In this document: in pieces, positions 95-34,200 of the stretch
Position numbering within the stretch: the first letter of the stretch is position 1
Layout of the letters: each line of letters opens with the position of its first letter
Assembly: GCA_947629545.1 (NCBI GenBank)
Contig: CANREE010000022.1
Span: 1 to 34,302 of the forward strand
Reading direction: 5' to 3'
From: an uncultured Lachnospiraceae bacterium
GTDB taxonomy: Bacteria > Bacillota > Clostridia > Lachnospirales > Lachnospiraceae
DNA length: 34,302 nucleotides
The notes under the pieces: model-generated
Seen by the model: the letters and a program-made list of their open reading frames with translations, nothing else
Databases searched by the model: none
Told to the model about the DNA's origin: nothing
Made by a program: the position numbers and the translations under genes

Positions 95-688
95 CTACTC
101 GTCCCGTATATTCCCCTTCTTCACATTCTCATCGATCAGCCCCATGGCAAACTCGCTGATCTCCTTCGAACCCCGCGCCGTCGTCTTGTGGCGGCCTTCC
201 ACCTGAGAGCGGCAGACGCCGTGTTCCCGCCAGTCGGCGCCGCCGTTGGAATTGTTCAGAAGAAGCGGCTGAAGATTGTCCATCGTATGGGCAAAACGCG
301 CCTCTGGCGTCGCGTAAGTCTCAAACTCCTCGAACAGGCCGCGCAGTTCCCTGCGCTGTTCGTCCGGCAACAGTCCGAAGATCCGCTCCGCGGCCTTCTC
401 CTCCCGCTCCTTCTGGGTCGCCAGCCCCTGCGCGTCATAGGCATAGGTATCCCCCGCATCGATCTCCACGATATCGTGGATCAGCGCCATCATCATGGCC
501 TTCGCCAGATCGAACTCCTCGTTGGAATACTCCCGCAGAAGCCAGATCATGACCGCCATGTGCCACGCGTGCTCTGCGTCGTTCTCCCGGCGTCCGTGAC
601 CACTTAAATGGGTCTGGCGGAGGATATTCTTCTCCTTGTCGATCTCAAGAATAAACTGCAGCTGTTTCTCAAAACGTTCTCTGTCCAT
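95..688 (-). CDS. HD-domain hydrolase, YfbR/HDDC2-like 5'-deoxynucleotidase
   Basis: A 197-residue soluble protein with the HD-superfamily metal site: His40 (in DAEHAWH), the His71-Asp72 pair (ALIHDIVEIDAGD) and Asp137 (HTMDNLQP). The E-N-D-A-E-H start of the domain and the spacing are those of the YfbR/HDDC2 group, which dephosphorylate deoxynucleoside 5'-monophosphates in the cytoplasm; the exact substrate here is inferred. The length is normal for the family. The ATG at 688 is preceded by GGAG with 8 nt spacing. It diverges from the membrane protein at 821, so it is probably a single-gene unit. No clear terminator is seen between its stop and the window edge. Confidence 0.85.
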   Translation of the reverse strand: MDRERFEKQLQFILEIDKEKNILRQTHLSGHGRRENDAEHAWHMAVMIWLLREYSNEEFDLAKAMMMALIHDIVEIDAGDTYAYDAQGLATQKEREEKAAERIFGLLPDEQRRELRGLFEEFETYATPEARFAHTMDNLQPLLLNNSNGGADWREHGVCRSQVEGRHKTTARGSKEISEFAMGLIDENVKKGNIRDE

Positions 689-820: not shown

Positions 821-1465
821 ATGTTAAAGACTCGAATCTGGATGAGCTGTCTTGGCGTCGTCATCTGCGGCGTCAGCGTCGGAATGTTCCGCACCGCAGC
901 TCTGGGCGTGGATCCGTTCCAATCGCTCATGAGCGGCTTAAACAGTGTGATCCCCTTAAGCTTCGGAACGCTTTACGTGGCCGCCAACGCCGTACTGCTC
1001 CTGTTCTCCCTGGTCTTCGACCGGCATAAGATCGGCCTGGCCACGCTAATCAACCTGACGCTTCTGGGCTACGCGGCGGAATACTCGCAGTTGCTCTTCG
1101 AAGCCCTGCTGCCGGGCCTGACATTTCCGGCAAACCTCCTTCTGCTGGCCGTCGCCCTCGTCGTCATGTGCTTCGGCTCCGCTCTCTATTTCAACGCCGA
1201 TCTGGGCGTTTCCACCTACGACGCCGTGTCTCTCATTTTATCGGAGAAACAGACGCGGGTCAGCTTCCGCGTTTGCCGCGTCGCAAGCGACCTCGTCTGC
1301 GTTCTGCTCGGCGCGCTGCTCTGCCGCGTCTCCGGCATGAGCCTGATGGAGATCACCGGCGTCGTCGGTATCGGCACAATGCTGACCGCCTTCTGCATGG
1401 GTCCGCTAATCAGCTTTTTCTCTGACCGGCTGCCGCTGCGGAGGGAGAAGCCGCGTACGTCCTGA
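821..1465 (+). CDS. YczE/YitT-like integral membrane protein
   Basis: A 214-residue polytopic membrane protein with about five hydrophobic segments, starting LKTRIWMSCLGVVICGVSVG. The motif A-A-L-G-V-D-P-F-Q near residue 25 and its echo N-A-D-L-G-V-S-T-Y-D-A near residue 128 are typical of the YczE/YyaS family. The echo suggests two repeated halves. The function of the family is unknown; a transporter or membrane-stress role is often assumed. The frame stays open upstream to 608, but the ATG at 821 is chosen because AGGAGG (807-812) sits 8 nt before it and the upstream part carries the promoter. It converges with the flavodoxin gene, the stops being about 17 bp apart. Confidence 0.8.
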   Translation: MLKTRIWMSCLGVVICGVSVGMFRTAALGVDPFQSLMSGLNSVIPLSFGTLYVAANAVLLLFSLVFDRHKIGLATLINLTLLGYAAEYSQLLFEALLPGLTFPANLLLLAVALVVMCFGSALYFNADLGVSTYDAVSLILSEKQTRVSFRVCRVASDLVCVLLGALLCRVSGMSLMEITGVVGIGTMLTAFCMGPLISFFSDRLPLRREKPRTS

Positions 1466-4580: not shown

Positions 4581-4621
4581 TCAGGCTCAGGGGAACACCC
4601 TCTGATATGATATCCATATAA

Positions 4622-4664
4622 ATACGAGCAGAATGTCACTTGCTCCCTGCTCACATGGAAATTA
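4622..4664 (+). repeat. Interspersed hairpin motif, copy A
   Basis: The element starts ATACGAGCAGA, pairs GAGCAG (4626-4631) with CTGCTC (4647-4652), has GTCAC in the loop and ends in CATGGAAAT (4654-4662). It begins about 40 nt after the DUF4349 stop and ends 3 nt before a terminator hairpin. It is the same family as copies B, C and D. Confidence 0.65.
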
Positions 4665-4667
4665 AAT

Positions 4668-4701
4668 TTCCGCCTGTATGATGAAATCCATACAGGCGGA
4701 A
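4668..4701 (+). terminator. Terminator after the DUF4349 gene
   Basis: A perfect 13-bp inverted repeat (4668-4680 with 4689-4701, arms containing CCGCCTGTATG) with an 8-nt loop, followed by TTCTTTATT. Confidence 0.7.
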
Positions 4702-4789
4702 TTCTTTATTAAAGGTCTCTCAAAAAATCTAATTTACACGATAATCGCAAAAAAACACCCAAAACCTTCACTGAAACGCAAAAAAAGAG

Positions 4790-4818
4790 TTGACAAATCC
4801 TCATATTCAAGAGATAAT
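4790..4818 (+). promoter_or_regulatory. Strong sigma-A promoter of the amino-acid importer operon
   Basis: TTGACA (4790-4795, perfect), 17-nt spacer, GATAAT (4813-4818). Predicted start near 4825, so the leader to the ATG at 4965 is about 140 nt and begins with the dyad at 4831. Confidence 0.8.
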
Positions 4819-4830
4819 ATCTTTGCTTGG

Positions 4831-4858
4831 TTATCGCTTTACCATGGTAGAGTGATAA
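4831..4858. promoter_or_regulatory. 28-bp dyad just downstream of the promoter, putative operator
   Basis: A near-perfect palindrome centred between 4844 and 4845: core TACCATGGTA flanked by arms TTATC-x-CT and AG-x-GATAA, with only two mismatched position pairs. An outer TTGCTT/AAGCAA pair extends the symmetry around a two-base bulge. Its place just after the predicted start suits a repressor operator; it could also fold as an RNA hairpin. The regulator is not identified. Confidence 0.6.
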
Positions 4859-4964
4859 AGCAATAAAGTATAATATAACTACTGCAACATTAACAGCGGC
4901 TGCGCCTGCGCCGTGGAACCGACCGTTCCCGGCCCGCCCGCCAACCATGAGGAGGATACGATTT

Positions 4965-5834
4965 ATGAAAAGATCTGTGAAAATGAAAGCGATCGCGCTG
5001 GCCCTTGCCGCGGCCGTCACAGCGCTTACCGCCTGCGGCGGACAGGGCGCTTCTGGTGGAGCGGGAACTTCCGCCGCCGCGTCCAACCGTCTGGAGGAGA
5101 TTCTTCAGCGAGGTTACATGGAAGTCGCCACAGAGCCGTATTTTGCGCCCCAGGAATTCATCGATTCGTCCAAGGAAGGCGACGAGCAGTATGTGGGCTG
5201 CGACATTGAACTGGCCAAATACATAGCCGATAAGCTGGGCGTGGAGCTGCGCATCGTTCCGCTGGAATTTGCGGCGGTGTTAAGCAGCGTCACGGAGGGC
5301 AAATACGACATGGCTATCTCTGCGCTGGCCTATACCCCGGAGCGTGCGGAAGCCATGAATCTGTCCGACGGATATCACTTTGAAAGCGAAGTTTACGGTC
5401 TTCTGGTCCGTGAGGAAGACATTGACAAATATCCGGATCCCGAGTCCCTGGCGGACGCTGTGATCGTGGCCCAGAGCGGCTCTCTGCAGGAGAATCTGGT
5501 GAACGATCAGGTCCCCGCCTATAAGGAACTCAAGCGGGTCTCCGCCACCACCGACGGTTTCCTGATGGTTCAGGAAAATAAAGCCGACGTGGCCGCCACC
5601 GAGATCGCTACAGCGGAGCTCTACGCCGCAGCCAACCCGGGTCTGGCCATCGCCAACAATTTCCGTTTCGTGATCGATCCCAGCACCAGCGGCACCCGTA
5701 TCGGCATGCCCAAGGGCGAGGACGAGCTGACGGCGAAGATCAATGAGATCATCGCCGAGGTCATCGAGCAGGGACTGTACGAGAAATGGTACGCGGAATA
5801 TACGGAATACGCGTCCAGTCTGGGAATCGACTAA
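4965..5834 (+). CDS. Polar amino-acid ABC transporter, substrate-binding lipoprotein
   Basis: A 289-residue family 3 solute-binding protein (SBP_bac_3). The signal peptide ends in A-L-T-A-C with the lipidated Cys24, and a Gly/Ala/Ser linker follows. The mature domain shows L-E-E-I-L-Q-R-G-Y-M-E-V-A-T-E, then G-C-D-I-E-L-A-K-Y-I-A-D-K-L-G and P-L-E-F-A-A-V-L-S-S-V, the family's typical first lobe. It is tethered outside the membrane, captures an amino acid (which one is not readable from sequence) and delivers it to the permease at 6038. The ATG at 4965 follows GAGGAGG at 9 nt. It is separated from the permease by 203 bp holding hairpins, which probably keep binding-protein mRNA more abundant than permease mRNA. 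Confidence 0.9.
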   Translation: MKRSVKMKAIALALAAAVTALTACGGQGASGGAGTSAAASNRLEEILQRGYMEVATEPYFAPQEFIDSSKEGDEQYVGCDIELAKYIADKLGVELRIVPLEFAAVLSSVTEGKYDMAISALAYTPERAEAMNLSDGYHFESEVYGLLVREEDIDKYPDPESLADAVIVAQSGSLQENLVNDQVPAYKELKRVSATTDGFLMVQENKADVAATEIATAELYAAANPGLAIANNFRFVIDPSTSGTRIGMPKGEDELTAKINEIIAEVIEQGLYEKWYAEYTEYASSLGID

Positions 5835-5838
5835 AATG

Positions 5839-5881
5839 ATGCGATGCAAAGCAACTGCATATACGTGCTGCCACATCGCAT
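5839..5881 (+). other. Inverted repeat directly after the binding-protein gene
   Basis: ATGCGATG (5839-5846) pairs with CATCGCAT (5874-5881). It starts only a few bases after the stop. It may act as a partial terminator or as a 3' mRNA-stabilising hairpin inside the operon. Confidence 0.45.
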
Positions 5882-5888
5882 TTCGGTG

Positions 5889-5930
5889 ATACGAGCAGAG
5901 CGTCACCGGCGCTCTGCCCGCATGGAAATA
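5889..5930 (+). repeat. Interspersed hairpin motif, copy B (best copy)
   Basis: The element starts ATACGAGCAGA, identical to copy A there. It has a perfect 8-bp stem GCAGAGCG (5895-5902) / CGCTCTGC (5910-5917) with a 7-nt loop TCACCGG, and ends in CATGGAAAT (5921-5929). It lies between the binding-protein and permease genes. Confidence 0.7.
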
Positions 5931-5973
5931 CACATAAGCCGTTGCCGCGCACAATACAACAGACAAACATTAA

Positions 5974-6002
5974 TCCGCCGGGCGTACATACCTGCCGGCG
6001 GA
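5974..6002 (+). other. Inverted repeat before the permease gene
   Basis: TCCGCCGG (5974-5981) pairs with CCGGCGGA (5995-6002) around a 13-nt loop. No T-run follows, so it is more likely a processing or attenuation hairpin than a full terminator. Confidence 0.45.
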
Positions 6003-6037
6003 TAGTGCAGTCATGACAGAAAGGGATTAACCGCACC

Positions 6038-6703
6038 ATGTTTCTGGAAAATATGATCAAAATCTGGCAGCGATACGACTACGTATTCATCAACGGCCTG
6101 TTCGGAACGCTCTGGCTGGCCCTGATCACTGTGGTCGTCGGCACCATTTTAGGCACCTTCGTGGCGCTGATGCGGCTGTCGCGCTCCAAGATCCTGTACG
6201 CCATCACCGGCGTCTATATCGAGGTGCTGCGCGGCACGCCGATCCTTCTGCAGCTGTATTTCTTCTGGCTCCTACTGCCGAAGATCGTGCCCATCACCAT
6301 GTCGGACACGGCCTGCATCATCGTGGCCCTGATCGTCAATAGCAGCGCCTACGTGGCCGAAGTCATCCGCGCCGGGATCCAGGCGGTGGACAAGGGCCAG
6401 ACCGAGGCCGCCAAGAGCCTGGGCATGTCCGACCGGAACATGATGCAGCATATCATTCTCCCACAGGCCATCAAGAACATCCTTCCGGCCCTGGGCAATG
6501 AATTCATCGTCATGGTCAAGGAAACCTCCCTCGCCTCCGTCTTCTTCGTTGGCGAGCTGATGACGGCTTACAAGACGGTGCAGTCCACCACGTTCCTGGC
6601 GCTGCCGTCCCTGACCATCGCCGGACTCATTTATCTCATCGTCACCTTCGTGCTGACCAAGCTCTTAAAGCTGCTGGAAAGGAGGCTTAAGGCCAGTGAC
6701 TAA
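6038..6703 (+). CDS. Polar amino-acid ABC transporter, permease
   Basis: A 221-residue His/Glu/Gln/Arg-type inner-membrane permease with about five transmembrane segments. The EAA loop that docks to the ATPase is clear: [10 protein letters not shown] then [19 protein letters not shown] (about residues 127-160). The R-G-T-P-I-L-L-Q motif near residue 68 is typical of the family. The likely assembly is a homodimer with the ATPase at 6696 and the lipoprotein at 4965. The ATG at 6038 has only a distant AAAGGG, so initiation may be weak; the ATG at 6053 is a possible alternative. It overlaps the ATPase gene by 8 bases. Confidence 0.9.
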
Positions 6704-7490
6704 ACAGGTTCAGGACCAGGTCATCATCCGTGTGGAAGGCCTGTCCAAAAGCTTCGGAAAACTCCATGTATTAAAGAACATCGACCAGCATGTAAATCTG
6801 GGCGAGGTTGTTTCCATCATCGGCCCCAGCGGCAGCGGCAAGAGCACGTTTCTGCGTTGCCTGAACCTGTTGGAGATGCCGGAGGAAGGCCATATCTGGT
6901 TCGACGGCGTGGACATCGCCGACAAGAAGGTACGGAACGCGCGGCGTTTCCGCCCGTTCTCCCGCGGCAGCGTCATCGACATCGACAGGCACAGGCAGAA
7001 AATCGGCATGGTCTTCCAGCATTTCAATGTATTTCCCAATCTGACGGTGCTGGAAAATATCACCATCGCGCCGACGCTTGAGAAGAAGATTCCGAAGGCC
7101 CAGGCTATTGCCAGAGCGGAAGAACTTCTCGACAAAGTGGGACTTCTGGATAAGCGGGACGAGTATCCCCGTAAGCTGTCCGGCGGCCAGAAGCAACGTC
7201 TGGCCATCGTCCGGGCCCTGGCCATGGAGCCGGAGGTGATCCTGTTCGACGAGCCCACCAGTGCCCTGGATCCGGAGATGGTAAAGGATGTGCTGACTGT
7301 CATTAAAGATCTGGCGGAAAGCGGCATGACCATCGTCATCGTGACCCATGAAATGGGCTTCGCCCGGGAGGTCAGCGACCGGGTGCTGTTCATGGAGGAC
7401 GGCCAGATTGCTGAGGAGGGCACGCCGGAGGAGATCTTCGGGAATCCAAAGAACCCGCGGACGGCGGAATTCCTAAGTAAGGTGCTGTAA
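6696..7490 (+). CDS. Polar amino-acid ABC transporter, ATPase
   Basis: A 264-residue ABC ATPase of the GlnQ/HisP type. Walker A is G-P-S-G-S-G-K-S-T, the Q-loop G-M-V-F-Q-H-F-N-V, the signature L-S-G-G-Q-K-Q-R, Walker [15 protein letters not shown], and the H-loop V-T-H-E-M-G-F. The usual arginine-rich insertion of this family lies between Walker A and the Q-loop. It starts with GTG at 6696, inside the permease gene, 10 nt after AAGGAGG (6679-6685), so translation is coupled to the permease. It supplies energy for amino-acid uptake. Two hairpins follow the stop. Confidence 0.92.
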
Positions 7491-7528
7491 TGTGTTCCTG
7501 CGAAGGTTCGTACCCCGCAGGATACATT
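7489..7528 (+). terminator. Terminator overlapping the ATPase stop codon
   Basis: Arms AATGT+TCCTGCG (7489-7502 with a two-base bulge) and CGCAGGA+ACATT (7516-7528), followed by TTCGGG. The last bases of the gene form part of the hairpin. Confidence 0.55.
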
Positions 7529-7556
7529 TTCGGGAAATTAAGAAATAAGTAATCGT

Positions 7557-7606
7557 ACGGCGTTTGCCGCTTCCAATGCCAGACAGAAGAGCGGCAGCGC
7601 CGTTTT
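7557..7606 (+). terminator. Second terminator or attenuator ahead of the M20 gene
   Basis: ACGGCG (7557-7562) and TGCCGC (7565-7570) pair with GCGGCA (7591-7596) and CGCCGT (7598-7603), followed by TTT. Two successive terminators suggest the amidohydrolase gene at 7736 is not simply read through from the importer operon. Confidence 0.6.
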
Positions 7607-7657
7607 CCGTTATAAACCGATAAACAGGAAAAATCATTGATGACGCTGTCTTATACA

Positions 7658-7711
7658 TGATGTATGAATCATGTTCTGAATAACGATACATAACTGCCGG
7701 CAGCAGTTCGG
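7658..7711 (+). promoter_or_regulatory. Dyad and hairpin upstream of the M20 gene
   Basis: CATGAT and ATCATG form a perfect dyad with a 6-base centre at about 7658-7675. A hairpin ACTGCCG / CGGCAGT lies at about 7690-7712, just before the Shine-Dalgarno. A weak TTGATG-17-ATGTAT promoter could place the dyad over its -10. The promoter assignment is uncertain. Confidence 0.35.
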
Positions 7712-7735
7712 CAGTCAGAAAGGAGTAATCCAGGT

Positions 7736-9217
7736 ATGACCGATCTGCAATTTATTGAACAATCTGTCGCCCGCCGCGAGGCCATGATCCTCGACGCCAA
7801 CGACAAGATCTGGAGCTACGCGGAGCTTCCCTACGAGGAGTACAAGTCCTCAGCTCTCCTCTGCGATATTCTGGAAAGGGAGGGCTTCGCCGTAAAAAAA
7901 GGCGTGGCCCATATTCCCACCGCCTTCATCGCCAGATACAGCCGCGGCACCGGCCGTCCCGTCATGGGCATCCTGGGCGAATTCGACGCGCTGGCGGCCT
8001 TAAGCCAACAGGCGGCCACGCCTTCCAAATCACCGGTCGTCTCCGGAGCCCCCGGCCACGGCTGCGGCCATAGCTGTCTGGGCACCGGCGCACTGGCGGC
8101 CGCGCTGACCGTCAAGGATTATCTGGACGCCTATGAAAAGGACGGAACTATCATCTATTACGGCTGCGCTGCTGAAGAAGGCGCAGGCGCCAAGCAGTTT
8201 ATGGCCAGAGACGGGCTTTTCGACGGCGTGGATTTCGTCTACACCTGGCATCCGGCCTCCCGCAATGAAGTCCAGCAGCACTGCAGCGTGGCGATCATGG
8301 GCGCCAATTTCGAGTTCTTTGGCCGTTCCGCCCATGCCGGCGGCAGCCCCCATCTGGGCCGCAGCGCGCTGGACGCGGCAGAACTGATGAGCGTGGGCGT
8401 CAATTACCTGCGGGAGCATATGATCGACCAGGCGCGCGTCCATTACGCTTACGTGGACGCGGGCGGAACCTCTCCTAACGTGGTTCAGGATCATTCTCTG
8501 GTCAAATACGAGGTCCGCGCCCCCAAAGTCCATCAGATGAAAGAACTCTTCGAGCGCGTCGTCAAGGTGGCCCGCGGGGCGGCTATGATGACCGAGACCG
8601 AGATGAAATACGAGATCACCATGGCATTCTCCGACTATATGTCCAATGACGTTCTGGGCCGCTTCGCCACGCAATGCATGATGGAAGTGGGCGCCCCTCA
8701 GTGGGATGACGACGACTACGCCCTGGCGAAGGCATTTCTGGAATCCTACGATCCGGTAACGCTTGACGCTATCAAGGCGGAAATCGCCTCCAAATACGAA
8801 AAGGAGGACACCGGCGCTCTTCCCGCACAGAAATACAGCGCGGAACAGCTGGATGCACTTCTGGCGAAGCCGCTGGACGCGGAAATCCATCCCTACAAGG
8901 ACGGCCCGCACCCCTACGAATCCGGCTCCACCGACGTGGGCGACGTGGGATACGCGGTTCCGACCCTGAACCTGAACGTTGCTACCTGCTGTCTGGGAAA
9001 TGTCGGCCACACCTGGCAAATGACCGCCCAGTCCTGCAGTTCTCTGGGCCACAAGGGGCTGCTGACCGCCGCAAAGATGCTGGCGCTCTGCACCGTCCGC
9101 ACCATGCAGTCACCGGAGACCATTGCCGCAGCGTGGGAAGAATTCCGGGCAAAGACCGGCGGCGTCTATCATTGCCCGCTGCCGGATACCGTAATGCCGC
9201 CGGTGGGGAGATATTAA
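7736..9217 (+). CDS. M20 family amidohydrolase, AbgB-like
   Basis: A 493-residue cytoplasmic zinc amidohydrolase. It has the catalytic and metal residues of the M20 aminoacylase/AbgB group: G-E-F-D-A-L (Asp84), P-G-H-G-C-G-H (His108, His112), A-E-E-G-A-G (Glu147/148), W-H-P (His172) and a late H-P-Y-E-S-G-S-T-D-V-G-D-V. G-R-S-A-H-A-G-G starts the lid/dimerisation domain near residue 195. The family cleaves N-acyl or p-aminobenzoyl amino acids. Lying right after an amino-acid importer, it may hydrolyse an imported N-acylated amino acid; that link is an inference. The ATG at 7736 follows AAAGGAG. The length is slightly above the usual ~480. Confidence 0.88.
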   Translation: MTDLQFIEQSVARREAMILDANDKIWSYAELPYEEYKSSALLCDILEREGFAVKKGVAHIPTAFIARYSRGTGRPVMGILGEFDALAALSQQAATPSKSPVVSGAPGHGCGHSCLGTGALAAALTVKDYLDAYEKDGTIIYYGCAAEEGAGAKQFMARDGLFDGVDFVYTWHPASRNEVQQHCSVAIMGANFEFFGRSAHAGGSPHLGRSALDAAELMSVGVNYLREHMIDQARVHYAYVDAGGTSPNVVQDHSLVKYEVRAPKVHQMKELFERVVKVARGAAMMTETEMKYEITMAFSDYMSNDVLGRFATQCMMEVGAPQWDDDDYALAKAFLESYDPVTLDAIKAEIASKYEKEDTGALPAQKYSAEQLDALLAKPLDAEIHPYKDGPHPYESGSTDVGDVGYAVPTLNLNVATCCLGNVGHTWQMTAQSCSSLGHKGLLTAAKMLALCTVRTMQSPETIAAAWEEFRAKTGGVYHCPLPDTVMPPVGRY

Positions 9218-9225
9218 AACGACAA

Positions 9226-9265
9226 TGCAAGCAGAGCGTCACCGGCACTCTATTCTCAATAAAAT
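9226..9265 (+). repeat. Interspersed hairpin motif, copy C (degenerate)
   Basis: It contains GCAGAGCGTCACCGGC, 16 bases identical to copy B, but the right arm is degraded (CACTCT) and the CATGGAAAT end is missing. It begins about 8 nt after the M20 stop and lies 6 nt before the next terminator. Confidence 0.6.
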
Positions 9266-9270
9266 AACAA

Positions 9271-13509: not shown

Positions 13510-16500
13510 CTATGCGTCATTCTCATCCTTCTTAAACGCCAGAATACCAAACGCTCCCATCAGCCCAAGCGCCAGCAGACTGAACAGTGCAACCGCACCC
13601 ACCGGCTTCTCATCGCCTGTCGACGGGGCCATGAACGCCAGCGGTACATCCTCGTCCTCAATGTTCACGAGCGGAGACGGGGACAAGGGCACAGCCTCCT
13701 CCGGAATATTCGTCACCGGCATCGTGGGCGGCGTAGGCGTTGAAGGCGGATTGCCTGGGTTACGTGGCGGAGTGTAAGGCTCCGTGGGGCTGGTTTCCGA
13801 TTCCGTTGGCTGGGTGGTTGGTTCAGTCGGATTCTCCGACGACGGCTCAGAAGGCTGGGTTTCCGGCTCCGATGGCTGCGTCTCTGACTCAGACGGCTGC
13901 GTTTCTGGCTGCGACGGATTCGTCTCTGGCTCCGATGGCTGTGTCTCTGGCTGCGACGGATTCGATTCCGGTTCCGAAGGCTTACTCGGCTCCTCGAACT
14001 TATTTGTACAGACGACATCTATTCTGCCGTACTTCGTCGTACCACCACAGTTTGTACCATCAAAACTACTGCTTCTTTGCTCACCACTTTGTTCTGTTAA
14101 GGTTTCCGTCACCTTATATGACGTACTGACAGCATCCCTGGCATCACTCTCTTCGATCTGGTACGTCATCCCATTTTTCAGACCAGTCAGATACTTGTAT
14201 TCCCCGGATTTCAGACGGATCTCTGCTTTTCCATCCACAAATTCCAACGGTTCCAATCCTTTTCCGTCATCATCCACGACATCAACTTTGCCCTCAAATG
14301 GTAAGCCCGTTTCATCCGTCAGCGACAATATAAACGTAAATTCCTCATTTGTCCCTCCGTTAACCGCCTGTTTCTCCAGCCGCAGACTGCAGGTAGGCGT
14401 GTTCGTAAATGTCCACGGTTTATCCTCATTGTTCGCTTCACCAGGGTCAGTCGTAATTATATAAGCACCATTAAAATCTTCTTCTACCGTATACACATAC
14501 TCCGTTTCACCATCAGGTTCATACTTTGGCAGTCCCTTAAAGAACTCTACCGCTCCTTCATTCCAGTACTTTCCATAATCCGAGACGATGAGATCGACAC
14601 TTACAAACCTCTCACCGTTCTGCAGCAGCCAAAGTTTGATAGAATTGGCTCGTAAGTTTGCATTCTTATCAGCTTCACCATCCCATAGCTTGCGCACCCA
14701 AATACTTACTAATTCATCTTTCGGTTCGCCTTTACCAATATTAACTTCTCCATTCGTACCTATGCCGCCGCCACAGGAATTGGATCTATTACCTGCAATG
14801 ACCGTCGTTACATATTCTTCCGCCTCTTGAACAGATTCATCTGAATCTGTCAGCTCATTATAAGTTCCAATGGACGAGTGTTCTCCGCTTAACGTGACAT
14901 TCAGCTCCGAAGGAGTCAGTATATTCCCCTCCGCATCCTTCCAGCCGTATTCGCCGCCTCTCAGCATCGTAGAAGATATTCTTACAGTCGGAATGCTGTC
15001 TTTATTACGGGTAACATATATTTCCTGGCCAGGGTACTCGCCGGAATCTTGATTGTTATTGTATATAACACCGCCATCATCGATGTACATGCAGACACTG
15101 GAATATGGGCAACCTGCTATGCCTCCACCTTGCAAAGCCGCAGAATTATCGCTGATTCGGACATTATTTAACCAAAGCTTTCCTGTCGACCCTCGTCCGC
15201 CTTGAACATATATACCACCGCCTCCATAAAGCGCACTTCGAGATTTATCGCTATAGGACTTCTCGTCCAGCGTACACTCATTCTCTACGATTTCCCCGGA
15301 AAAAATCTTGGCAGTATAACCCTCGGCTATAAAGATACCTCCACCATTAGCCTTAGATTCATTCTCTTTAATCGTTCCTACTGCTCCTTCTATCATCTTT
15401 CCTTTCTTATTATTTGCTTCTTCTCCCATGAGCAAACCGGTTTCATGAATATTAGTATTCTGTCCCGTCTCCACGCCTAAGGAAATGCCTCCGCCATATC
15501 CGGAGTAATTCTGGCGGATTATACCATCATAAAATTCCATTTGTGCATTGCCAACGATACATACACCGCCGCCACTACCAACATCATAATCGTAACGGCC
15601 ATTTCCTGTGAATGTTGCCGTATTACCGCTAATTTCGCCCCCATTCATAACGAACTTCACGGTATTCTCTTTTCCGTTTCCAAAAAGCAGAATACCTCCG
15701 CCATTATTAGCCCCGCAGTTGGTAACATTTCCGCCGTTCATATTCACGGTACCCTCACACCAAACTGCCCCGCCGTTGAAGCTATAATCTGTACCAACAC
15801 TTGGGAATCCGCCCAGTACGTTAACACCTGTTTCTGAAGAAATATTATTGTTCTCCAGGGTCGCGCCAGAGTCAATATTCAACGTACCGCCCGCATCCAC
15901 CTTGATCAGCGACTGTCTCGCCTTGTTATCTTTTTCAGTATCGTAACCGCCATCGAGAGTTATATTGGTTATTGTCAACTCAGCACCGGATTCGACTTTA
16001 ATCATACAATTCTTATAATCCTCAGAGCGGCAAATCCTATATGTCTCCCCCTCATCTGAGATCAACCTGACATTCTGGCCCTTCTTAAGACTCGTTCCTG
16101 CATCTAACTCGATATCACGCAATACAATTACATCTGTAAGCTCTTCATCAATCGGAACTTTCTCAAATGCAGCAGCAAGGGAATTATAAGTTTTTTGACC
16201 GACCATAACACAATCTTTCGTATATGTGTTGGTAATCGTGATTTCAGCAGTCTCGCCTTCTTTCACCTCCACAATATTAGGCTCCGACTGTACTTTTAAT
16301 CCATAACCATCTACATTTGCACTGGTATGATTCTCCGACTCGGCTAGTTCTTCAACCCTATACTTTCCAACCGGAAGGCTCTCTATTACTGTCTCTTGAT
16401 TTAAATTGGAAGAATCAATCGTAATTGTCCCTGTCTTTTCAACCTTGGGATCTGTAGCATTTATACAGTTGAAACTATACTCTGCAGGTATTTGATCTTT

Positions 16501-19500
16501 TGGAATCTCTCCATCAATCTCTAACTTTATCCTAAGGTTGCCTGGTTCAGCAATTTTCGTATATTCAAATGTGAATTCCGTTTCCAGGGTATCCCCTTCT
16601 TTAACTAGGCCATAACAGAAACCTGCTTTTGGGCTTATCAGTTTACAACTATAACCATCGACTTGTTTTGAATATCCCTCCCCTTCTGGAGCCTCCTTAA
16701 CACTAACCCCGTTAGTTAGAGAGCTCACATCTATTTCTATTTCCATCTCTGGCTTTCGTCCGGATGGTATCTCTACTATATCAGTATACTTTGGGAATGG
16801 TCCATAAGTAAACCTAAACTTTTCAGGGATCAAATCATCTGGAATGTCTCCTGTTATATTCACTTTAATCTTCAATTTACGTGGCTTCTTCTTCTCATAC
16901 TGATTTACAATGTTAACCGTTTTCGTATCTCCCGCCTTAACCTCAATGACCTTTGACTCAATCGTCGTCCCAAGCAACGTATATCCTTCGATTACAGTAC
17001 TCTTTTCCTGCTCTGTAATCGTATATGTCCCAGGAGCCAAACCGGTACTTGCCATTCCTTCGCCGATAATATTCACCGTTTTGATGTTGCCACTCTCATC
17101 TTTGATGTCAAAAGAAAATGTTTTATCAGCAACAGCTTCGTCTTCTTCAACTCCCTCAACTGTTTTGTTGATGACCAAAGTACCTCTTTCTCCAGATTTT
17201 ATAGCCCTAATACCAGTACTGCCAATATAGTAATCATAATTATTGTTATATAGCGGAGTATAATAATACTTTTCCTCGTCAAACAGATCCTGCCAAACGT
17301 AAAGATCGTTCCCTATCTCCTCACTTTCCATCTCTGATGCAGCCATCAGGTATTTTAAGGATGAAGTTCCAAACATAATATCAACAGCATCATTGCCTGC
17401 ATTGTTACCATAAACAGCGCCCGAATAAAGATAAAACTCCTTACTATCAACGTATATTCCTCCGGCGTTATAATTTGTTTTACTGCCAACTCTCTCAGAT
17501 TTTTCGTCTACTTTATTGTCAGTAATAATCGTCTCATTAATCTTTAAACTTCCAGTACGATGATAAATAGCGCCCGCAGTTTTTCCCGTATTTTGAGTAA
17601 TTCTCGTGCCACCGCTAATTTCCAAGGTACTACCATAATCATAAATAGCACCTGCACCTTTTGCTGAAGTGTTACCCATCATTATAGTTTTATTATCAAT
17701 TGCCAGAGTCGCATTCTGCCTCACAACGATTGCTCCAGCAGCAATATCAGACAATCCATCTGTAACTTCATTATCACTAAACTCACATTCGTCGACAGTA
17801 ACATTCGCTTTATTATCAACAGATAAACCACCACATTGCTGCATTTTATTACCCTTGAAAATACATTCACTGAATTTAATATCGCCCCCATACGCGCATA
17901 CTGTGTTATCACCAACTATACGGGATCCCCTAGTGAGCGAAAACATAGAGTTATTCATAAACTCACATTTGGAAATTTCACCTTGGGAAGCCTTAATAAA
18001 CACCACATCAGAGGTAGCATAGTTGTCCTCAATATAACATTCGGTCATGTTAATATAAGCACATATCACTTTCAAGGCACCATTACTGCTACCACTATAC
18101 GGGTCATACTCGGTATTATTACCACACTTTTTGATTGCTACATTATCTAATATAACATCAGAAGCACTATTAATTAATAAACCCCAAGTTTTATTTGTTC
18201 CATCCTCTGGTCCACTGATAGTTCCGTGCGAGATTTCCACACTACCACTGCCAGCATCAATAGTAAGTACTGGATGTATTCCGTCAGCATATAACGTATT
18301 ATCATTCAACTCCAAAGTAAAAGCCTTATCTGTGGTAACTGCAACATTATACAAATTTTCATTGATCTCAATTACGTCGCCAGCTTCTACCTTGCCAATT
18401 GCCTCATCCAATGTGGCATAATGACCTTTTATTTCCTCTCCGTTCTTCAGCGTCACCGCACCATCATCAAGCGCCATCATCATCACGCCATCAAACCCAA
18501 ACACCTCACCGGATATCCTTATCTCACCGCTGCGTGCTTCTGCGTCCAGATCCATACTGCCATCATCCACGTCGTCATCCTTGATCATGTCACCGCCAGG
18601 CAGGTCTGTGGACATAGTTGTCCCGTCACCCACATTTGTCCCATCCTGAGATGCTTCATCGATATTCGCGACATCGCCGGGCACCTCCGGAGGCGTAACG
18701 ATCTCGCCGTCGCCTGCCGCCGGTTCATCCGGGACTACTTCGCCGGAATTGGCCTCATCACCGGATACCTCCGGGGGCGCAGCGATCTCATCGTCGCCTG
18801 CATCATCACCCTCCGAGGCCCCTTCACCGACATCCGTTCCGTTGCCGGGAGTCGCCGGGACTATGGTTTGCTCGCTTTCATCTTCCCCGGACTCGTCCCA
18901 GAAAGATCCGCCGTCATTCACCTCATCGTCAAAGTTCTCCGGGGATACCGTAATTTCATTCTCCGTGTCCTGCTGCCCGTCGACGGGCATTTCCTCATCG
19001 TCTGCTCCGCCAGCGATTCCCTCATCACCGGAACCGATTCCCGGAACGGTCACGGTTTCTGACTCAAAAATAGCTTCTCCATCAGAAGGATCGCAGACCA
19101 CGACCTGAAATGCCAGTTCCCCTTCGCTCTGATTCGTGAACTGCACAACGACATCATTACAATCCACATCATAGAGCAGGTTCACATCCACATCCGCCCC
19201 AGGCGTCAGTGTCGGACGGACATCCAGATCATAAAGCAGCCCCAGTGGCATATCCTGCTGTATCTCATCTGCCTGATCCGCTTCTTTCTGCACCCGTTCC
19301 ATCACTTTACCGATGGCCTTGTTTACCTCTTCAGCATTCAGCTCACAGCGTACATCCAGCGTATCCGTCCCTTCCGTCTGCTGAGATTCTTCCGCGTAAG
19401 CACTGATCGTCCCGGTCAGGGTATTCACCATGATCATGGCCAGAGCCAGAACAAAGGCAACACCCCTCCTGTAACCTTTTGTCCCCGAAAGTAATCCATG

Positions 19501-19527
19501 CATCATCCTTTTCTTCATGCCTTTCAT
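13510..19527 (-). CDS. Giant beta-helix surface protein with Cna-B-like domains
   Basis: A ~2005-residue secreted protein. The signal peptide ends near A-Y-A (about residue 45). A ~120-residue N-terminal domain and an acidic Gly/Asp/Glu/Pro-rich linker (about 165-345) with two copies of a P-P-E-V-x-G-D-x-A-N unit follow. Then come a first right-handed beta-helix (about 355-780; repeated G-A-I-Y/S-G-G-T), three pilin-like or DUF5979-like beta-sandwich stretches (about 780-1105; N-K-T-V-E-G then T-I-T-N-T-Y), a second beta-helix (about 1108-1596; N-G-G-G-I, G-S-G-G-G-V), a Cna-B-like domain (about 1603-1713) and another beta-sandwich. Six heptapeptides PS[EQ]PE[ST][QN] precede the end A-P-S-T-G, a membrane helix and K-K. 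It is probably wall-anchored and adhesive. The ATG at 19527 overlaps the upstream stop (TGATG). Confidence 0.85.
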   Translation of the reverse strand: MKGMKKRMMHGLLSGTKGYRRGVAFVLALAMIMVNTLTGTISAYAEESQQTEGTDTLDVRCELNAEEVNKAIGKVMERVQKEADQADEIQQDMPLGLLYDLDVRPTLTPGADVDVNLLYDVDCNDVVVQFTNQSEGELAFQVVVCDPSDGEAIFESETVTVPGIGSGDEGIAGGADDEEMPVDGQQDTENEITVSPENFDDEVNDGGSFWDESGEDESEQTIVPATPGNGTDVGEGASEGDDAGDDEIAAPPEVSGDEANSGEVVPDEPAAGDGEIVTPPEVPGDVANIDEASQDGTNVGDGTTMSTDLPGGDMIKDDDVDDGSMDLDAEARSGEIRISGEVFGFDGVMMMALDDGAVTLKNGEEIKGHYATLDEAIGKVEAGDVIEINENLYNVAVTTDKAFTLELNDNTLYADGIHPVLTIDAGSGSVEISHGTISGPEDGTNKTWGLLINSASDVILDNVAIKKCGNNTEYDPYSGSSNGALKVICAYINMTECYIEDNYATSDVVFIKASQGEISKCEFMNNSMFSLTRGSRIVGDNTVCAYGGDIKFSECIFKGNKMQQCGGLSVDNKANVTVDECEFSDNEVTDGLSDIAAGAIVVRQNATLAIDNKTIMMGNTSAKGAGAIYDYGSTLEISGGTRITQNTGKTAGAIYHRTGSLKINETIITDNKVDEKSERVGSKTNYNAGGIYVDSKEFYLYSGAVYGNNAGNDAVDIMFGTSSLKYLMAASEMESEEIGNDLYVWQDLFDEEKYYYTPLYNNNYDYYIGSTGIRAIKSGERGTLVINKTVEGVEEDEAVADKTFSFDIKDESGNIKTVNIIGEGMASTGLAPGTYTITEQEKSTVIEGYTLLGTTIESKVIEVKAGDTKTVNIVNQYEKKKPRKLKIKVNITGDIPDDLIPEKFRFTYGPFPKYTDIVEIPSGRKPEMEIEIDVSSLTNGVSVKEAPEGEGYSKQVDGYSCKLISPKAGFCYGLVKEGDTLETEFTFEYTKIAEPGNLRIKLEIDGEIPKDQIPAEYSFNCINATDPKVEKTGTITIDSSNLNQETVIESLPVGKYRVEELAESENHTSANVDGYGLKVQSEPNIVEVKEGETAEITITNTYTKDCVMVGQKTYNSLAAAFEKVPIDEELTDVIVLRDIELDAGTSLKKGQNVRLISDEGETYRICRSEDYKNCMIKVESGAELTITNITLDGGYDTEKDNKARQSLIKVDAGGTLNIDSGATLENNNISSETGVNVLGGFPSVGTDYSFNGGAVWCEGTVNMNGGNVTNCGANNGGGILLFGNGKENTVKFVMNGGEISGNTATFTGNGRYDYDVGSGGGVCIVGNAQMEFYDGIIRQNYSGYGGGISLGVETGQNTNIHETGLLMGEEANNKKGKMIEGAVGTIKENESKANGGGIFIAEGYTAKIFSGEIVENECTLDEKSYSDKSRSALYGGGGIYVQGGRGSTGKLWLNNVRISDNSAALQGGGIAGCPYSSVCMYIDDGGVIYNNNQDSGEYPGQEIYVTRNKDSIPTVRISSTMLRGGEYGWKDAEGNILTPSELNVTLSGEHSSIGTYNELTDSDESVQEAEEYVTTVIAGNRSNSCGGGIGTNGEVNIGKGEPKDELVSIWVRKLWDGEADKNANLRANSIKLWLLQNGERFVSVDLIVSDYGKYWNEGAVEFFKGLPKYEPDGETEYVYTVEEDFNGAYIITTDPGEANNEDKPWTFTNTPTCSLRLEKQAVNGGTNEEFTFILSLTDETGLPFEGKVDVVDDDGKGLEPLEFVDGKAEIRLKSGEYKYLTGLKNGMTYQIEESDARDAVSTSYKVTETLTEQSGEQRSSSFDGTNCGGTTKYGRIDVVCTNKFEEPSKPSEPESNPSQPETQPSEPETNPSQPETQPSESETQPSEPETQPSEPSSENPTEPTTQPTESETSPTEPYTPPRNPGNPPSTPTPPTMPVTNIPEEAVPLSPSPLVNIEDEDVPLAFMAPSTGDEKPVGAVALFSLLALGLMGAFGILAFKKDENDA
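13845..13985 (-). repeat. 21-bp minisatellite encoding PS[EQ]PE[ST][QN]
   Basis: At least six in-frame heptapeptide units near the C-terminus of the surface protein, followed by degenerate Pro/Thr/Glu units. The region is a wall-spanning stalk; copy number can change without shifting the frame. Confidence 0.75.
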
Positions 19528-20006
19528 CACTTTTCCTCCTCTTCCTTTTTGCCTCTAAAACATGATAGTCTGTCTAACCCGGAGCAAATCAGCGAAATCA
19601 GTTCCAGCCCGCTCCGATAATACCGCTTCTTCCCATTCCACCGCACTTCTCCCTGCCAGCTCGTATGCTGGCGGAAATAAACACGAATCAGAAACACCTC
19701 TGACCGGATACGCGCACCGCCCGGGACAGCGGCGGCAGCCGGTCCAAAACACGCAGCGGCAGGTGCGCTCCCGATCCCGAATGTTCTAAACCTTGTGCTT
19801 CTGTCCGGCTCATACAGCTGATCCAGCCATCGCTGAATCTGAAGAACCGCCTGATCCAGACCGATAAAGCGCACGGTCTGTTCCCCGTAATTCCAGTACA
19901 CGGTTCCGAAGGAGCTTCCATCCTGCCCTCGGCTGACCTGCAGCCGAAACACCTTTGCATCGATTTCGGATAAGTTCTCCGACCGTTCGGCCTCCTGTAC
20001 AATCAT
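19527..20006 (-). CDS. Unrecognised protein made of two copies of one domain
   Basis: A 159-residue protein that I cannot assign. It contains an internal duplication: residues about 18-64 (K-V-F-R-L-Q-V then G-T-V-Y-W-N-Y-G and R-W-L-D-Q-L) align with about 102-147 (E-V-F-L-I-R-V then G-E-V-R-W-N-G and S-G-L-D-R-L). An Ala/Pro-rich spacer separates them. Each copy reads as two or three beta strands followed by a helix. The C-terminus is K-K-E-E-E-E-K. There is no signal peptide or membrane segment, so it is cytoplasmic. The ATG at 20006 follows GGGAGG at 7-8 nt, and its TGA overlaps the ATG of the giant surface protein, so the two are translationally coupled. A role in making, exporting or controlling the surface protein is inferred from this alone. 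Confidence 0.75.
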   Translation of the reverse strand: MIVQEAERSENLSEIDAKVFRLQVSRGQDGSSFGTVYWNYGEQTVRFIGLDQAVLQIQRWLDQLYEPDRSTRFRTFGIGSAPAAACFGPAAAAVPGGARIRSEVFLIRVYFRQHTSWQGEVRWNGKKRYYRSGLELISLICSGLDRLSCFRGKKEEEEK

Positions 20007-25453: not shown

Positions 25454-25481
25454 CTTCTGCTACTCCACAGTCTTAAGGCTT
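25431..25481. terminator. Terminator built from the ends of two convergent genes
   Basis: Outer arms AAGCCTTAAG (25431-25440) and CTTAAGGCTT (25472-25481); inner arms GGAGTAG (25447-25453) and CTACTCC (25460-25466) with a 6-nt loop. Both TAG stops sit in the inner arms, so coding sequence of both genes forms the hairpin. Confidence 0.8.
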
Positions 25482-28400
25482 TCGACCATATTGACCTTCT
25501 TTAATTTGAAGTGCGCCGCGATATTAACAACCGCTGAGAACAGAACTGTCAGAACAGCTGCAAGCACATAAGCGTAAGGCGGCGCCGTACGTCCAAACAT
25601 AACCAGATTGACCTCCACAGTAAGGACCAGCCAGGCATGCAGCATACGTCCCATGATCAGTCCCAAAAGGATCCCGAAGATCGTCAGGAAGATATTCTCC
25701 CGGTAGACATAGGCGGTAGTCTCCCTGTCATAGAAACCCAGCACCTTCAAAGTCGCCAGTTCCCGGGTGCGCTCGGTAATATTGATGTTGGTCAGGTTAT
25801 AGAGGACCACAAACGCCAGGGCCGCAGCAGCAACAATGATGATGACCACCGCATAATCAATGGCGTTCATGCTGTCCGTGAAGCTGTCGCGGATCGTGGC
25901 AATATAAGAATAAGACGTGACCGCATCCATTGCCATCAGGTCCACCGACACCTGCTCCGACTGGGTCAGGCCGGCATCTTGGCAATACCGGATCATGGCC
26001 ACATTTGCTTCCGGCGCTTCGCCGAACAGGGTTTCATAGACAGCCTCGGACAAATATACATAATGGTGGACATAGTTCTCCACAATATCTGTGACTACAG
26101 CAGTCACCCGTTCGTCATCCTTTTCCAGCGTGACCGTATCACCGGCACGGACCTTCAGCAGTTCCGAAAGCTTTTCACTGATGATGACGCCGTCCTCCGG
26201 CAGCACCACCTGCGCGCTGTCCAGCCGATGCCGCAGATCGATGAACTGCGTAAATTCAGCCATATCCCCGACTGCGAACAAATAAACATCATAGGACGGC
26301 CCGGTCGTGGACGCCTCGACCATCGACTGGCTGGTAATCAGATAGTCTTCAATACTCTCATTATCTGACAGATACGTCTCCACCTTTCGGAGTTCTTCCG
26401 GCGCCGCCTCCGCATCCAGACCGGCCGTGGCGTCGTAAAGGGAAATATCGTCAAACTGCCGGTTCAGGATCGAGAAAATAGAATCATGCAGGCCAAAGCC
26501 CGTGACGATCAGCGCCGTGCAGCCGCCGATTCCAATGACGGTCATCCAGAAACGTCTCTTGTAGCGGAACAGATTGCGCATCGTCACCTTCCAGGTAAAG
26601 GAAAGGCGGCCCCAGAGCGGACGGATGTACTCCAAAAAGACTCGTTTGCCCGGCTTGGGAGCGCGGGGACGCATCAGATTCGCCGGCGTATCCACCAACG
26701 TGGACAGGCATGCCCAAAGCGCTGCACCGGTGGTACAGGCCACGGCGGCCAGCACCGAGAACACATAGGTTCCCATCTGGTTCTTGAACCGCAGCGCAGG
26801 AATATGGTACATAATGTTAAATGCGTTGGCAATAACCGCAGGGATCAGCGTGCCGCCCAGAAGAAGCCCAAGCACGCCGCCGATCAGGCTGGCCGACAGG
26901 GCATAACCGATGTATTTCTTCGAAATAGACAGGCGGGAAAATCCCATAGCCTTCAGCGCGCCGATCTGGGTACGCTGCTCTTCTACCATCCGGGTCATCG
27001 TAGTCAGACAGGCCAGAGCAGCAACCAGAAAGAAGATCACCGGGAAAATATTCGCCAGATTGCCGATACGTTCCGAATCCTGACCATAACCTTCAAAACC
27101 GGCGTTCGTATTGCGGCCGAGGACGTACCATTCGCATTCGTCGATATCATCCAGTTCCGCCTGCGCGTCGTCTACTTCCGCCTGCGCGTCATCAAGTTTC
27201 TTCTGGGCGTCAGCGATCTCTTCATCGGCCTCTTTTTTGCCGTCCTCGTATTCTACCAGGCCATCGGCATATTCCTTCTCACCGTCTGTAAGCTCCGCAA
27301 GCGCATCATCCAGTTCTTTCTGTCCGTCGATACGGGCGTCCTCCAGTTCGGCTACGCCGTCATTATATTCCTCCCAGCCCTCGGCCAGTTCCCGCTCGCC
27401 GTCCTCGATCTCGACGCGCGCGTCTTCCAGTTCCTTCCAGGCATCGTCAAGCTCCGCCTTTCCGTCGGCCAGTTCTTTCTCCGCGTCAGACAGCTCGACC
27501 CGGCCGTCATCCAGTTCCTTCCTCGCGCTGTCAAGCTCACTTTTGGCACCTGCTAACTGAGACCGGGCGGAACTGATCTCGGCGCTGGCAGATGAAAGCT
27601 GGGCCTCGGCAGCCTTAAGCTGCGCGGCAGACTCCTCCAGCTGCGCTTTCCCGTCAGCCAGCTGGGCAAAGCCCATATTGAGCTGCACTTGTTTTTCCAG
27701 CAGGTCATTTTTCGAACCCTGAACCGTATCACGCTGTCCTTTCAGGAGCATTTCTCCCTGCTCTATCTGTCCGCGCTGCGCGTTTAACGCCGATGCCACA
27801 CCGTAAAGTTCCGCCAGTTTCACATTATAATCCGCGTCATCAGGAGACAGGTTCTCTCTGGCTTCCTCGATCCGGCCCAGAGATTCATCGATTTGCCTTT
27901 TATTGTCCGCAAGTCCGTTCAGGTTCTGGTCGATCGCCGCAAGCCCCTCGTCAACCTGTGCCAGTCCGGCCTCCAGTTCGGCCTTTTGCTGATTCAGCAA
28001 CTGTTCCGATGCCTGGGCTTCCGCCGCTCCCTGATCATACTTCGCTTTTCCTGCAGCGTATTCCCTTTGTCCGGACTCATAAGCAGCTTCTCCGCTCGCC
28101 AGCGCCAGCTTCCCGCTCTCGTACTCCTGCTGCCCGTCTTCATATTTCCTCAGCCCGTTCTCATACTCCGTCCTGCCATCTTCATATTCCTTCTCGCCAT
28201 TCTCATATTCAACGACGCCATCCTGATACTCCTTCAGTCCGTCAGCATATTTCTGCTTCCCGTCCGCCAGTTCCTGCTCCGCGTCCAGAAGCTCCTGATG
28301 CGCGTCCGCAAGCTCCTTTTCCGCATCCGCGATCTCCTGATGATACGTGTCGATCCCTTCATAATAATCCTTCCAGCCGTCGTCCAGTTCCTGCCGGGCA

Positions 28401-33920: not shown

Positions 33921-34140
33921 CACTTTTTTCAAAAAATTTTTAAGATTTTTGTATCTTTCTATATTTTGAACTAATCGTCTGCGATTATTTGAATAAATCC
34001 AAAATATTTCGCCTAATTTATCCGAACATTTCCGATATAATTCGACTTTTCATATCTGTTTAGGAAAATCCGCCATAGCTTAAGTCTCACAAACCGTATG
34101 ACTTCCGAAATTTTCCAAACTGCCGGCGACCTTCCCGCGT

Positions 34141-34200
34141 AATACGGGAAGATCGTCACCAGCGCTCTTCCCGTCCGGCATTCCGATCGCATGGAAATAA
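34141..34200 (+). repeat. Interspersed hairpin motif, copy D
   Basis: ATACGGGAAGA start, stem ACGGGAAGA (34144-34152) / TCTTCCCGT (34166-34174), GTCACC in the loop (34155-34160), an extra 15 bases, then CATGGAAAT (34190-34198). The stem sequence differs from copies A and B but still pairs. Confidence 0.65.

Follow-up and report, generated by a model that had tools for sequence, protein, structure and literature searches.

A mobile 39-nt hairpin repeat dispersed through one genus of Lachnospiraceae

Why should one short hairpin recur three times within 5 kb, each time behind the stop codon of a plus-strand gene and close to an inverted repeat? The question is raised by positions 1 to 34,302 of contig CANREE010000022.1 (GenBank assembly GCA_947629545.1), from an uncultured Lachnospiraceae bacterium, a stretch of 34,302 nt that is referred to here as the window. 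A preliminary description, made from the letters alone, had considered an RNA element of 3' untranslated regions, a sequence resembling the repetitive extragenic palindromic (REP) elements, and a small mobile hairpin. Comparison with related genomes demonstrates that the repeat is mobile, and that its insertion target lies around AAT^A. It is probably a miniature, non-coding, REP-like mobile element, moved as a folded single strand by an enzyme that we propose to act in trans. The last two suggestions of the preliminary description are therefore borne out by the many copies, the exact 39-nt inserts opposite empty sites and the 3'-biased intergenic placement, whereas the idea of an RNA element gains no support as an account of what the repeat is, since copies lie in both orientations to genes, and within genes in all three forward frames. 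The copies in the window and their neighbours are as follows, with E-values from a search of the window's own genome using a covariance model, R1.

4620..4664, + strand: copy A, AAATAC followed by the hairpin and CATGGAAAT; 39-nt unit 4624-4662; model R1, E 1e-13
5887..5931, + strand: copy B, the top-scoring copy of the window; 39-nt unit 5891-5929; model R1, E 7e-16
8792..8836, + strand: in-gene copy, within the M20-peptidase gene and in frame as 13 extra codons; unit 8796-8834; model R1, E 0.004 genome-wide, and empty sites
9223..9267, + strand: copy C, whose 3' arm and tail are decayed; 39-nt unit 9227-9265; model R1, E 7e-10
34140..34199, + strand: copy D, degenerate; hairpin at about 34145-34173, about 15 extra nt, then the tail CATGGAAATA; model R1, E 2e-4 for 34140-34184
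7736..9217, + strand: M20-family peptidase, host gene of the in-frame copy; PF01546 (E 4e-8) and PF07687 (E 1.5e-6)
4665..4713, + strand: terminator-like hairpin 3' of copy A, a neighbour lying outside the element; terminator scan

The evidence for movement comes from related loci that lack the repeat; to our knowledge, empty sites for such small hairpins have seldom been shown. In the M20-peptidase gene, the 39-nt (13-codon) insert is present in genomes G000 and G013, and a gap occupies its place in nine of the ten other orthologous loci, the tenth row being misaligned. Correspondingly, the 13 residues are found in two of the 14 aligned peptidase proteins and are missing from the other 12, comprising ten orthologues of 75-96% identity and two paralogues of 45-46%. 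Across all loci, 179 clusters of copies were tested, 74 of which had both flanks elsewhere and 26 a shorter counterpart. The length difference was exactly 39, 78 or 117 nt in eight of these 26, within 2 nt of such a multiple in five, and 44 nt in one; a further 47 clusters had the same length as the matching locus, some being one place fetched twice, for which reason none is treated here as a shared insertion. Three sites (L091/L011, L097/L218 and L111/L217) have non-consensus bases in the left flank that are those of the empty allele, and the right end stays AAAT. At these sites the left flank appears to come from the target and the right end from the element, which would speak against target duplication. 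Furthermore, in one metagenome-assembled genome (MAG), CANPYE, seven of the 44 copies examined are identical over all 39 nt; they occupy seven loci whose left flanks all differ, apart from ending in AAT. This is a sign of recent spread in that lineage; no identical pair of 39-mers occurred in the five other copy sets examined.

What moves is a compact and regular unit. Its 39 nt begin with AC and comprise an 11-bp hairpin with a nearly fixed apex, GTCACYGGC, and a nearly fixed 3' tail, CATGGAAAT; the lower stem varies in sequence, with pairing mostly kept. Model R1 was built from 17 copies, A, B and C among them, aligned over 45 columns with an 11-bp stem. In 111 aligned rows (17 + 94, four rows being common to both sets), the AATAC before the stem (positions 2-6) is conserved at 90-94%, the apex GTCAC at 98-99%, GGC at 93-97%, GCATGGAAA at 92-98% and the following TA at 90%, the apex and tail values being inflated by the many copies fetched with a pattern that fixes parts of both. 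Standard pairs make up 88.3% of the stem over 234 unique copies, compared with 79.7 +/- 0.4% in 500 shuffles, a lenient control given the common history of related copies, and 28-45% when the partners are slid; all 11 positions are paired in 26% of copies. The GC-rich hairpin and T run of an intrinsic terminator are not found on the forward strand, which ends in CATGGAAATA, and the opposite strand scores as a terminator in nine of 62 copies. A sister subfamily joins the same hairpin to another tail of 15 nt, CATACTGACGTAATA, in a unit of 44 nt, which is exactly the difference seen at one locus pair. With up to three mismatches, this tail was matched in 37 segments, some of them with no preceding hairpin.

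Within the window, copies A, B and C are where the preliminary description had placed them, each 3' of a plus-strand stop codon (the open reading frames (ORFs) end at 4580, 5834 and 9217) and close to an inverted repeat. Its count of four copies in 34 kb also included D, which is present in degenerate form, most likely at 34140-34199, but overlooked the fifth, in-gene copy at 8792-8836. The excess is independent of the model: GCAGAGCGTCACCGGC has five window matches at up to three mismatches, against 0.45 expected, and TACGAGCAGANNGTCAC has six against 0.68, neither number being reached in any of 100 shuffles. No Rfam family matched the window at gathering score, in line with the earlier failure to name one.

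The expectation of many copies per genome proved equally sound. The window's own genome (2.95 Mb) has 111 matches at E <= 0.05 among the 150 candidates scored out of 1249, a few of these being other-strand echoes of one hairpin, giving about 100 copies by the covariance model. Matches were found in 15 of 61 genomes searched, counting this one, and all 15 belong to its genus. At E <= 0.001, the 26 genomes of this genus comprise ten that are rich (65-97 matches, which are lower bounds, as at most 103 candidates were scored per genome), five that are poor (1-7 matches) and 11 with no match. When 397 genomes of the family were drawn evenly from 334 genera, the only ones with matches were G000 and G015, both of the same genus, with 15 candidates scored per genome under strict filters that divergent or rare copies could escape. 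In a collection that represents each species by a single genome, the exact pattern picked out 83 stretches, of which the 80 listed all come from uncultured Lachnospiraceae MAGs with 'Lapin' sample names; the same scan of viral contigs gave none. The literature yielded no described family of such repeats in Lachnospiraceae or Firmicutes, which is not proof of its absence from print.

Copies also associate with each other in a directional manner. Among 82 neighbour pairs within 150 nt, 80 lie on the same strand and two on opposite strands, and the spacing is exactly 39 nt in 75. Tandem neighbours mostly have different stems, with 7.4 mismatches over the 39 positions in 65 tandem pairs, compared with 8.8 for random copies; slippage was therefore rejected as the sole source of arrays. 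Most arrays seem to have grown through insertion beside an earlier copy, with some local duplication. Copies also show a strand polarity: of 105 clusters, 76 lie on the strand opposite the G-rich one (p 5e-6), whereas the bias with respect to the direction of genes is weaker (63 of 105, p 0.05). The former bias is evident in G000 (10 of 11 clusters, p 0.01), whose set, like that of G015, overlaps the 105.

These features are consistent with single-strand insertion by a putative hairpin-recognising recombinase. An enzyme supplied in trans would recognise the folded single strand through its apex and tail, cut within or after AAT, and join the 39-nt strand to a second AAT elsewhere. One plausible source of this strand would be the exposed lagging-strand template, as in the 'peel and paste' of IS200/IS605 elements; use of the lagging strand is among the features documented for IS608 and ISDra2 (PMC6006769). 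Each copy supplies a fresh AATA at its own 3' end, on which subsequent copies could land, so that arrays would build up. Copies arriving at promoters would probably be purged, such that a bias towards 3' ends remained. Five of the six reading frames are open in the consensus unit, with 92-98% of 234 copies open in each of the five and 4% in the sixth; hence, with a length that is a multiple of three, insertions within genes can survive as 13-codon inserts. A bolder form of this reading, which we put forward tentatively and regard as somewhat doubtful, holds that the lone 39-nt hairpin is a complete single-strand mobile element in which one fold serves as both ends, that its recombinase belongs neither to the REP-associated tyrosine transposases (RAYTs) nor to any tested HUH family, that the two tail subfamilies share a mover, and that length and open frames permit the 13-codon protein inserts.

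Several results weigh against movement of a folded strand by such an enzyme. The length difference takes other values in 12 of the 26 shorter counterparts. Eleven comparisons of six-letter strings from filled and empty sites do not distinguish between a cut after the second, third or fourth letter of NAATAC (11 mismatches in each case, versus 13-19 elsewhere), placing the cut inside AAT(A), and the empty alleles in L114/L128 and L135/L140 lack the T of the left AAT, which would put the cut one or two bases further left. The copy site in L114 (3844-3889) lies within another dispersed repeat (CATGACCACAAGTCATGGGCGGAGCGGCAACCTGAG), making orthology uncertain there; this repeat also occurs in G021 (pieces L220, L221, L235 and L244), a genome almost without the hairpin. 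Copies in tandem resemble each other slightly more than random copies do (p 0.008), and 14% of tandem pairs have an identical 5' stem arm, compared with 1.6% of random pairs, indicating some duplication in place. Taken by itself, the unselected G015 set shows no significant strand bias (23 of 37, p 0.19). Finally, no enzyme family tested tracks with the element across the 26 genomes of the genus. The Y1 transposase (PF01797), of IS200-like type where its loci were inspected, was found in ten of them (four of ten rich, one of five poor and five of 11 element-free), Rep_trans (PF02486) in one, which is rich, Y2_Tnp (PF04986) in six, of which three are rich (one with a partial match), and the reverse transcriptase domain RVT_1 (PF00078) in 20, with no contrast between rich and element-free genomes. 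An HUH-motif scan of 995 called proteins in G015, covering 1.2 of about 3.5 Mb, gave 30 matches, of which a single IS200 transposase was plausible by eye.

The identity of the mover is where most rival explanations part from the proposed trans-acting enzyme. A classical RAYT/REP system, with the hairpins as REPs and a domesticated Y1 transposase resident in the genome as their mover, accords with the size and number of the copies, their hairpin, their placement and their occurrence within genes, all of which match the REPs described in PMC3733652. It is nevertheless unlikely, as REP_Tyr_transpos (NF047646) exceeded its cut-off in none of the 26 genomes, with weaker matches in seven; the unpaired GTAG or CGTC tag is missing; and neighbours are arranged head-to-tail in 80 of 82 pairs, rather than inverted. 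Resident Y1 enzymes are in general unlikely movers, because PF01797 was not found in six of the ten rich genomes, these being MAGs of 80-94% completeness, and incompleteness weakens every absence of a gene; the Y1 transposase was rejected on the grounds that its presence does not follow that of the copies. A missing mover is not peculiar to the Lachnospiraceae hairpin, as CGTC REPs are described in PMC3733652 as apparently lacking a dedicated transposase too. A tyrosine recombinase could instead act on folded single-strand sites, as integron integrases do on attC, with the small integrase of locus L147 as an example. Its subfamily (71-100% identity) is present in seven of 15 element-bearing and none of 11 element-free genomes of the genus, four of the latter having merely a relative of 34-36% identity, and the gene sits between two copies in L147/L347. 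Yet it was not found in five of the ten rich genomes, its distribution may be plain phylogeny, and none of the other nine loci of the subfamily, some ending early at the ends of contigs, is flanked by copies on both sides, so that we rejected the flanked gene of L147 (5865-6461, PF00589) as the mover and consider this explanation improbable. Still harder to credit is RNA-templated insertion, in which a reverse transcriptase would copy the hairpin RNA at nicked AAT sites: such genes are common in the genus, but equally frequent in element-free (10/11) and rich (8/10) genomes.

The remaining rival takes the repeat to be a cis-acting RNA element of 3' ends, involved in processing, stability or antisense termination, that duplication has dispersed and selection has retained. 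The conserved structure would fit such a role, as would the placement of copies. Of 157 non-redundant clusters, 132 are intergenic and 25 lie inside genes, as called by a simple codon-usage method that leaves some in-gene clusters near gene starts doubtful; in unselected stretches, the in-gene clusters number three of 37 in G015 and two of 11 in G000. The intergenic clusters are distributed over co-directional gaps (48 antisense and 24 sense), convergent gaps (41), divergent gaps (13) and gaps of unknown type (6), whereas co-directional gaps account for 67% of intergenic bases, convergent gaps for 13% and divergent gaps for 19%, making the convergent class enriched. Terminator-like sites, excluding hairpins of the element itself, lie within 100 nt of 30 of the 42 intergenic clusters in unselected stretches, compared with 25-45% of random intergenic positions, depending on class. 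However, copies occur on either strand relative to genes, and within genes in three forward frames and antisense; they form arrays; they are inserted at AATA opposite empty sites; and 11 of the 26 genomes of the genus have no match. The association with stop codons and inverted repeats reported for the window holds there, but genome-wide it is no more than a tendency, on either strand relative to genes. Convergent gaps and the neighbourhoods of terminators are where inserts would be expected to be tolerated, and 3' placement looks like a consequence, rather than the function, of the element. We accordingly think a cis-acting RNA element an improbable explanation of the repeat, although an additional RNA effect of the copies is possible. 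The two outcomes that the preliminary description had named as telling against the feature, a genome without further copies or random placement inside genes, were both checked, and the feature survived.

A mobile, REP-like hairpin invites comparison with known systems. Like a REP, it is a hairpin within the 20-50 nt range of the GTAG and CGTC superfamilies described in PMC3733652, is present in high copy number and is mostly intergenic, with convergent and 3' placement and some copies within ORFs, and intragenic REPs are among those described there. It is therefore REP-like in the way it works, as judged by size, copy number and placement, with the tag as the failing point. AATAC precedes the stem and CATGGAAATA follows it, with no unpaired GTAG or CGTC at the end of the palindrome and CGTC confined to the apex; in the TnpA-REP systems studied, according to PMC8266576, cleavage involves the GTAG motif to an extent that varies between systems. 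It differs also in having no RAYT over the cut-off, in arrays that run head-to-tail at exactly 39 nt, and in that all its matches in the genomes searched come from one Lachnospiraceae genus; inverted neighbours, here two of 82 pairs, and a RAYT are usual, though not universal, among REPs. With IS200/IS605 elements such as IS608 and ISDra2 it shares a hairpin, what looks like insertion beside a short fixed site with no sign of target duplication, and possibly the lagging-strand polarity. Those elements carry one hairpin near each end, whereas here a single hairpin stands between two junctions, with no gene inside and no guide tetranucleotide complementary to AATA seen. Integron attC sites similarly combine a folded single-strand hairpin, as recombination substrate, with head-to-tail arrays, but the present repeat has no R'/R'' boxes by eye, no cassette, and dispersed genomic targets. 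The small dispersed repeats of cyanobacteria, associated with Elhai (2008), are said to be very small, thought to be mobile and often tandem; they differ from this hairpin in sequence, host and size. Rickettsia palindromic elements (RPEs) are, in the account of PMC10969869, a known case of palindromic units in frame within protein genes, the first reported being of about 150 bp, versus 39 nt here, with nearly half lying in frame inside genes in R. conorii, versus 25 of 157 clusters. Two RPE families are classed as CGTC REPs in PMC3733652.

The value of this system is that natural differences within one genus, including species without matches, can show how long the inserts of a very small mobile hairpin are, which target and polarity they have and how they are arrayed. 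The spread of REP-like hairpins with no visible transposase thereby becomes testable through comparisons of gene content, and the in-frame copies constitute a natural experiment on 13-residue protein inserts.

Other elements were also found in contact with the hairpin. In L196 and L199, an IS200-like Y1 element directly adjoins the left end of the hairpin, read on the reverse strand (GTATT), and hairpin copies are near a Y1 gene or its remnant in L198 and L203 (these four loci, L196, L199, L198 and L203, being from G008, G012, G015 and G001 respectively). The repeats seem to be landing sites for this element, whose subtype was seen just in element-rich genomes among the 19 Y1 loci inspected; the IS200 ends examined in L196, L198 and L199 carry other hairpins, and are not akin to the repeat. 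An autonomous element bearing the 15-nt tail of the sister subfamily was rejected after eight tail sites were inspected, as the element-like ends in L290 and L063 resemble those of an IS1182-like element. In both loci, at about 1303-1320 (-) in L290 and about 376-394 (-) in L063, the tail is abutted at a nearly identical place by an IS1182-like transposase, so named by eye, or by a similar end sequence lacking the gene. Elsewhere in the window, repeats spaced by 21 nt occur at 13778-13990, within the 2006-aa ORF at 13510-19530, and a dense array of repeats, most of them spaced at multiples of 21 nt, occupies 27145-28519, within the large ORF at 25460-29311 (-), and is probably made up of coding repeats.

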